Origin: an uncultured Deferribacteres bacterium
GTDB taxonomy: Bacteria; Zhuqueibacterota; JdFR-76; DREG01
Assembly (NCBI GenBank): GCA_913009825.1
Contig: CAJVYQ010000018.1
Location: 1 to 64,000, forward strand
Length of the DNA: 64,000 bases
Direction: 5' to 3'
In this document: positions 21,648-39,330 of the stretch, in pieces
Numbering within the stretch: the stretch's first letter is position 1
Layout: each line of letters opens with the position of its first letter
The notes under the pieces: model-generated
What the model was told of the DNA's origin: nothing
What the model saw: only the letters and a program-made list of their open reading frames with translations
Database searches by the model: none
Position numbers and translations under genes: made by a program

Positions 21648-21807
21648 GTAACTACTCAGGTGTTTTCTTTCAATCTTTTTCGCCTTGCCGTGAACGACAA
21701 GGCTAAGAAATGAAAGGGCGCTAAAGCGTCCTATTTACGATAGCATCCTTCAGGATGCTTTCATGTCTTAGCCTGAGGGTTCACTCTCAGGCGACCTGAG
21801 TAGTTAC
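21648..21807. mobile_element. Family A MITE-like element, best-preserved ends
   Basis: 160 bases. The ends GTAACTACTCAGG and CCTGAGTAGTTAC are perfect inverted repeats, and the flanks AAAATTTT / AAAATTTT extend the symmetry. The interior holds several short hairpins (GGGCGCTAAAGCGTCC, GCATCCTTCAGGATGC) and a CCTTGCCGTGAACGACAAGG stem related to the repeat at 62332. Confidence 0.75.
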
Positions 21808-31274: not shown

Positions 31275-31621
31275 GTAACTATTCAGCTCACGTCTGTCTG
31301 ACACAGGCAGAAAACACACGAAACAATCGAATGATCTCATCTAACTTTTTTCCTGTTTTTTTTGAGTCTTTCACGGGCTGCCTGAGTAGTGACAATACCG
31401 TAACACTTTAGTTTTTTGAACAAATCCGCTTTCTCTGCGCTCTCTGCGTCTCTGCGTTTTAAAGCGCCTGTTTTTTTAACGCAGAGACGCGGAGGGCGCA
31501 GAGAAATTGAAAAAATCGTCTGCCTGTTCAGCCCGCGAATTACACGAAATCGTACGAATAGGACAAAATAGTTAACGATTCGCGTTTTTTAGCGATATTA
31601 GCGGGCAACCTGAATAGTTAC
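31275..31621. repeat. Composite family A block, left arm of a 7.4-kb inverted repeat
   Basis: 347 bases made of a 121-base family A element (GTAACTATTCAGCTCACG to CCTGAGTAGTGAC), a CTCTGCG/CGCAGAG hairpin unit, and a second family A piece ending CCTGAATAGTTACC. The whole block recurs in inverse orientation at 38981-39330, nearly identical by eye apart from a few differences (for example near the TTTTTTTAACGCAGAG segment). Confidence 0.8.
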
Positions 31622-38514: not shown

Positions 38515-38963
38515 GTAACTACTCAGCACATCCAGAAAAAAGTGGCCGGCCCTGAAAGACTTTAGTTAATGATTCCGGCACCTCATCAATCTTGACATAA
38601 TTAGATGTAGTGTGAAGCCTTGGTGGCAATTGTATCAGTTGCTTCTCTTTCCAGGCGTAATAAAAGCTCACGACACGCCATCTCTTTATATTGCCCGTTA
38701 GATTGCCGCCGATCCCATTTTTGACATAATTTGCGTGAAATCGCTGATCGACCTAATCTCCAATATTGTTCAACTGTGGCTCGGATAAAGGCTAAAACAT
38801 CTTCTGTGATGTGGCGATTTCTAATCTTTAGTTCATTCATTGATGATTTCTATATCTTCATATTCCATAATTATATCCTGATATGAATATATGAATTCAA
38901 TTAAGATGACGTCGATTTTTAAAAAATTTTCAAAGAATTAATTTAAACGTGCTGAGTAGTTAC
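38515..38963. mobile_element. Family A element carrying a DUF4338/DruA-like gene fragment
   Basis: 449 bases between GTAACTACTCAGCAC and the perfect inverse GTGCTGAGTAGTTAC. Longest complete family A element in the window, and the only one with coding sequence: on the minus strand a leader of about 120 bases is followed by the 5' part of a DUF4338-like gene that ends at a stop codon formed inside the terminal repeat. It abuts the composite block at 38981. Confidence 0.75.
38519..38840 (-). pseudogene. DUF4338 (DruA-like) gene fragment
   Basis: From ATG 38840 the frame reads MNELKIRNRHITEDVLAFIR, then VEQYWRLGRSAISRKLCQKW, then QSNGQYKEMACRELLLRLER. This is the pattern I recall at the start of DUF4338 (DruA) proteins, which have a K-M-A-C-R-x-LLLRLE stretch. 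A one-base frameshift near 38650 follows, after which the other frame continues KQLIQLPPRLHTTSNYVKID and then runs to TAG at 38519-38521 within the terminal repeat. The family's C-terminal two thirds are missing. Cannot be functional. Identification is from memory. Confidence 0.6.
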
Positions 38964-38980
38964 TAAATAATACAAATTAT

Positions 38981-39330
38981 GTAACTATTCAGGTTGCCCG
39001 CTAATATCGCTGAAAAACGCGAATCGTTCACTATTTTGTCCTATTCGTATGATTTTCGTGTAATTCGCGTGCTGAACAGGCAGACGATTTTTTCAATTTC
39101 TCTGCGCCCTCCGCGTCTCTGTGTTAAATAAATAGGCGCTTTAAAACGCAGAGACGCAGAGAGCGCAAAGGAAGCGGATTTGTTCAAAAAACTAAAGTGT
39201 TACGGTATTGTCACTACTCAGGCAGCCCGCGAAAGACTCAAAAAAAAAACAGGAAAAAAGTTAGATGAGATCATTCGATTGTTTCGTGTGTTTTCTGCTT
39301 GTGTCAGACAGACGTGAGCTGAATAGTTAC
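38981..39330. repeat. Composite family A block, right arm of a 7.4-kb inverted repeat
   Basis: 350 bases from GTAACTATTCAGGTTGCCCG to GTGAGCTGAATAGTTAC, the inverse of the block at 31275-31621. The same order of family A half, CTCTGCG/CGCAGAG hairpin, spacer and second family A element is present, reversed. Confidence 0.8.

Follow-up and report, generated by a model that had tools for sequence, protein, structure and literature searches.

A short element with IS66-like ends holds a remnant of a DUF4338 (DruA family) gene, a regular part of IS66-type elements across many bacterial phyla

The window analyzed here (i.e., the whole 64,000-nucleotide stretch of DNA) contains, at 38515-38963, a 449-base element with perfect 15-bp inverted repeats at both ends (Table 1). 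The boundaries and the perfect ends given in the first-pass annotation were exact. At up to three mismatches, the end pattern of the element has 10 matches in the window, compared with 0.37 expected. The left repeat is on the 3' side of a DUF4338 reading frame and holds the TAG that ends the shifted part of that frame. The sequences flanking this copy (TGTTTTTT and TAAATAAT) agree at 3 of 8 positions, i.e., an 8-bp target duplication is absent. A second relic of the right end, consisting of 39 identical bp, is present at C43:26269-26307 of the genome from which the window was taken (the host genome). The window also carries two copies of an approximately 350-bp family with GTAACTATTCAG ends (38981-39330 and 31275-31621), which is also present at C43, C38, C5, and C7; the first of these copies begins 17 bp beyond the 449-bp element and has a 7/8 duplication (CARATTAT).

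Table 1. Features of the 449-bp element in window coordinates
Feature	Position	Strand	Basis
Left terminal inverted repeat, GTAACTACTCAGCAC	38515..38529	-	Perfect match to the right repeat; near-identical to the ISDge4 ends (PMC12898284)
Frame-shifted continuation of the DUF4338 N-terminal domain	38529..38645	-	Translation and BLAST alignments of the read-through
DUF4338 N-terminal domain in frame, 66 residues starting at the 38840 ATG	38643..38840	-	Profile searches; unguided scan, 38637-38834, E 2.5e-15
5' leader, right repeat to DUF4338 start	38841..38948	-	Intact DUF4338-TnpC elements have similar (70-130 bp) leaders
Right terminal inverted repeat, GTGCTGAGTAGTTAC	38949..38963	+	Perfect match to the left repeat; 39-bp right end recurs in the genome

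After its 66 in-frame residues, the DUF4338 frame shifts near 38645 and continues in the neighboring frame (KQLIQLPPRL...) to the TAG in the left repeat. The first residues of the shifted frame (LIQLPPR) match the DUF4338 family, while its tail is less certain. A broken DUF4338/DruA-like gene, comprising the first ~90 residues with one frameshift and a stop in the terminal repeat, had been proposed from the sequence, and profile searches bore this out: the element encodes the N-terminal ~75 to 90 residues of a DUF4338 protein. The read-through scored 60 bits (E 2.5e-17) against a profile of the DUF4338 proteins of the phylum (best of 2000 shuffles, 7.9 bits) and 75 bits (E 1.2e-21) against one built from 84 DUF4338 proteins (11.5 bits for the best of 5000 shuffles). 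Its best single match was a DUF4338 protein of Desulfobulbus alkaliphilus (51% identity over 75 aa; E 4e-22). The locus was also recovered unguided, as one of three host-genome matches, by a six-frame scan of 82 whole genomes using a profile built from 63 proteins of other bacteria. The Pfam DruA model (PF14236), which the first-pass annotation had put forward as the check, gave no match to the 79-aa frame alone or to the read-through. The model misses the fragment because the best Pfam match in most intact DUF4338 proteins begins near residue 60 to 105, past the domain retained here. A chance resemblance, in favor of which this null result counts, is refuted by the 5000-shuffle profile test and the unguided scan, and we give it almost no credence. 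Searches with tblastn among plasmids and phages returned no matches to the fragment. Other genomes of the phylum also contain N-terminal fragments of DUF4338 (L202-L206); these had no GTAAC ends, and several of them were at contig ends.

The ends of the 449-bp element are those of the IS66 family, ISBst12 group. Target duplications of 8 bp and GTAA ends are IS66 traits. The terminal repeats of the element start with GTAA, as do those of known ISBst12-group members (ISDge4; ISPsko1, GTAAGCG). The 12-mer CTGARTAGTTAC occurs 440 times in the 5.1-Mb host genome, compared with 0 for the reversed control, and it is enriched in several further genomes of this phylum. Among 37 paired elements drawn from the window and 28 further stretches of the host genome, the 8-bp target duplication was exact in 20 and matched at 7 or more of 8 positions in 26 (swapped-flank control, 0.66); for the other duplication lengths from 4 to 12, not a single exact match was present among the 37 pairs. 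The commonest size class in the host genome is represented in the window by a 160-bp element (21648-21807) whose ends are GTAACTACTCAG and whose 8-bp duplication, AAAATTTT, is perfect. One candidate, an end pair 2163 bp apart at C9:6685-8847, was rejected as a single element: its left end pairs with a nearer end, and its far end is inside an ordinary gene.

In the phylum, such ends also bound elements some 1.5 kb long that code for the IS66 transposase TnpC (DDE_Tnp_IS66), namely L048/L170 (1523 bp), L189 (1525 bp; duplication ATTTTTTG, 8/8), and L172 (1508 bp). No IS66 transposase was found in the host genome assembly; the 440 copies of the 12-mer and numerous short elements are present there, yet no TnpC that would mobilize them was seen. 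In ISDge4, an active element described in the literature (IS66 family, ISBst12 group), the ends are GTGACTACTCAGCA and GTAACTGCTCAGCA, nearly the same as those of the 449-bp element, and there is an 8-bp direct repeat (CCTCGATG), as in the end family (PMC12898284). The single ORF of ISDge4 encodes a TnpC-type transposase, with no DUF4338, whereas the 449-bp element is a deleted remnant without a transposase (PMC12898284). Other IS66 elements have GTAAGCG ends, and some carry passenger genes (PMC12888890).

We surveyed DUF4338 loci by an alignment scan of genome contigs with the DUF4338 proteins of the window's phylum as the query, and analyzed the best 80 of at least 570 matches, which span approximately 17 phyla as counted from record titles; most of these loci are from metagenome bins, in which small repeat contigs can be misplaced. 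TnpC was detected with an HMM built from eight IS66 TnpC proteins, and loci with at least 600 bp downstream were considered (n = 74). Within these best 80 of at least 570 matches, a TnpC frame was present just downstream of DUF4338 on the same strand at 71 of the 74 loci, and TnpB was present just upstream at 54 of the 71 loci with upstream room; the common order is therefore TnpB-DUF4338-TnpC. The full set of PF14236 matches in eight host genomes gave a less biased look: of 19 matches, 13 were at loci with an IS66 TnpC frame as well, and the others were mostly fused to IS4/Tn5 transposases. The nine matches in the window's phylum were made up of IS4/Tn5 fusions or their remnants, along with two matches next to IS66 genes, one next to a frame of another DDE type, and one defense-type DruA. 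DUF4338 genes are a regular part of IS66-type elements across many bacterial phyla.

At two loci (L022, 835; L024, 1393), the start of TnpC and the stop codon of DUF4338 overlap (ATGA), which suggests translational coupling of the two genes. At L026, a DUF4338 gene is followed by frames weakly matching a different type of DDE transposase (DDE_Tnp_1). A gene annotated as an ISAs1 transposase on plasmid pTs417 (L207) overlies a DUF4338 match; a third transposase family may accompany DUF4338 at these loci. Our literature search found no link between DruA and IS66; the gene may already be recorded in ISfinder, which was outside the search. Passenger-carrying tIS66 elements, such as ISPa75 with fosZ, likewise combine a further gene with the IS66 transposition genes, but that passenger is an occasional resistance gene placed after the transposase, whereas DUF4338 precedes TnpC in an order that recurs across many phyla (PMC12888890).

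Since contigs stop at repeats, one or both ends were out of reach at most DUF4338-IS66 loci. For the same reason (i.e., many contigs stopping at repeats), an anchor-free search for ends and duplications around 71 loci gave mostly chance pairs, except at L135. Complete elements were readable in a smaller group of loci with DUF4338 and TnpC only. In this group, L135 (2335 bp) has an intact DUF4338-TnpC pair, GTAATCCCTCAGTC at both ends, and an 8/8 duplication, CTCTTTCA; L133 (2378 bp) has an intact pair and 20/20 end bases; and L080, L110, and L071 are further complete DUF4338-TnpC elements with GTAA ends. L076 (Rhodoferax-type; 3025 bp) has an intact pair between copies of GTAACTATTCAGGT, the ends of the window's family, and L085, from a chromosome-level assembly, has an intact DUF4338 gene with CTGAATAGTTAC at one side and GTGACTATTCAACTCAA at the other. 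Elements with these ends and an intact DUF4338 gene thus exist, as the first-pass annotation had supposed of the parent. The 449-bp element has the layout of the DUF4338-TnpC-only group minus its inside, i.e., a repeat, a short leader, and the DUF4338 start; the part where TnpC would follow DUF4338 has been lost, and the copy encodes no transposase.

On this evidence, we consider the 449-bp element to be, with a probability of roughly 85%, a nonautonomous, internally deleted copy of an ISBst12-type IS66 element whose parent carried DUF4338 first and the DDE transposase TnpC second. The earlier idea that the autonomous parent of this family carries a DUF4338 gene would thereby hold for the parent type; its description as a DUF4338 element as such would not, since the transposase is TnpC and DUF4338 would be an accessory. 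Observations against the deletion reading are that neither the host genome nor the phylum yielded an intact parent with GTAACTACTCAGCAC ends, that the host assembly showed no IS66 transposase, that the 449-bp copy has no 8-bp duplication, and that few DUF4338-IS66 loci were readable to both ends. The missing duplication would also suit a different origin, in which a DUF4338-free ISBst12-type element or a short derivative incorporated part of an unrelated DUF4338 gene through recombination and the parent never had the gene; the existence in the phylum of elements with these ends that encode TnpC only (L048, L189, and L172) likewise speaks for it. Against such a capture, a short leader precedes the DUF4338 start codon with which the fragment begins, as in intact DUF4338-TnpC elements with GTAA ends, and intact DUF4338 occurs in elements with the same ends (L076 and L085). 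We therefore regard capture as unlikely.

A parent of another kind was suggested by the only intact DUF4338 gene of the host genome (C7:24845-27151), which encodes a 768-aa protein with DruA, Tnp_DNA_bind, and IS4-family transposase domains. This gene is between GTAACTATTCAG and CTGAATAGTTAC, 2486 bp apart (C7:24728-27213; L013 6729-9214), and on account of these ends we first favored a parent with DUF4338 fused to an IS4/Tn5-type transposase and GTAACTATTCAG as its own ends. We rejected it on the inner motif, the absence of an 8-bp duplication, and the weaker match. The C7 element has an inner inverted motif (CATGTCCCTCATTATTTACTGRACACGG) common to its fused relatives, and the motif CATGTCCC..ACTGRACAC upstream of the gene is present in C7, L023, and L025; L023 and L025 have no GTAACTAYTCAG beside it, and the leader of the 449-bp element lacks the motif. 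Transposition of Tn5 duplicates 9 bp of target, compared with the 8 bp of the end family, and the outer ends of C7 have no 8-bp duplication (2/8). Moreover, the fragment matches unfused DUF4338 proteins better than the DUF4338 domain of the C7 fusion. A fusion of this kind is thus a very improbable parent. As to the proposed check whether intact DUF4338 genes of this genome are flanked by such ends, the C7 gene is so flanked, but the C7 fusion is most likely not the parent and would instead be an IS4-type insertion nested within another element. The nesting remains an inference, since the C7 left arm occurs once in the host genome, so that the element that it would have entered has no sister copy there, and no empty site was seen. 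The IS4/Tn5-DUF4338 fusions (C7, L023, L146-L148, and L157) resemble the IS66 elements in combining DUF4338 with a DDE transposase but differ in the transposase family, in being one fused protein, and in the terminal motif. At C54:15187-15495, the host genome also has a degraded C-terminal piece of DUF4338 that resembles the C7 fusion.

The element-borne proteins belong to the same Pfam family as DruA of the Druantia defense system: PF14236 matched all 63 aligned element-borne DUF4338 proteins. In contrast, the PADLOC DruA models matched only 1 of the 63 at E 0.001, and the neighbors of the element-borne genes are TnpB and TnpC, not defense genes. The defense-type DruA of the phylum (L021; G033:C249), with a PADLOC E value of 6e-82, is beside a HerA-like ATPase and an HNH protein, with no transposase, and shares 18% identity with the L133 protein. 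By the PADLOC models, the element-borne proteins would form a branch different from defense DruA. The link between the defense-named family and a mobile element drawn at first reading accordingly stands at the family level and does not extend to defense DruA proper.

A structure model of the L133 protein (mean pLDDT, 93.5) had as its nearest solved structure in a Foldseek search Mom of phage Mu (8bv8; E 6e-7), followed by GNAT acetyltransferases. The two folds match in part (TM, 0.42 by query and 0.59 by target), and DUF4338 differs from Mom in having an extra N-terminal helical domain and weak sequence similarity. The Pfam Mom model matched 13 of the 63 element-borne proteins at E 0.001 (best, 1.1e-9). 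A profile comparison that was weak overall (hhalign probability, 9%; E 0.0036) aligned Mom H48/Y49, S114, and D139 with H131/Y132, S206, and D236, positions that show little or no variation across the 63 DUF4338 proteins. The PDB title of 8bv8 describes an S124A mutant of Mom as inactive; as the two annotated starts differ by 10 codons, S124 would be S114 as numbered here. DUF4338 had already been called a GNAT domain in 2024 (PMC10853773). From the model, element-borne DUF4338 is predicted to consist of a helical N-terminal domain and a GNAT domain nearest phage Mu Mom with the key residues kept, and a DNA-modifying accessory is our leading guess for its function.

A possible course of events is that a parent IS66-type element, with DUF4338 and then TnpC between GTAA ends, lost its inside to leave the 449-bp copy. 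The short elements of the host genome would be moved in trans by a TnpC that recognizes GTAACTAYTCAG ends and makes 8-bp staggered joins; this TnpC would now be lost from, or missing in, the host assembly. DUF4338 may act with TnpC as an accessory protein, whose N-terminal helical domain may contact DNA and whose Mom-like GNAT domain may chemically modify DNA or protein during transposition.

A gene assigned to the DruA Pfam family may be taken for antiphage defense. Nearly all DruA family genes at the loci sampled are parts of IS66 or IS4 elements (the IS66 counts being from the best 80 of at least 570 matches), and therefore annotation or defense counts by family name alone would mislead. 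For IS66, whose accessory proteins are poorly understood, the recurrent TnpB-DUF4338-TnpC order adds another conserved component, one predicted to have a Mom-like enzyme domain. We tentatively propose, while holding it to be rather doubtful, that a large IS66 branch found in many phyla has a Mom-type DNA-modifying core gene with a DNA-binding-like domain, which would modify transposon or target DNA, and that defense DruA is a relative recruited into antiphage systems. If this is true, modification during transposition could, for example, shield the element from host restriction. Element-borne DUF4338 offers a concrete hypothesis for the origin of a defense protein.
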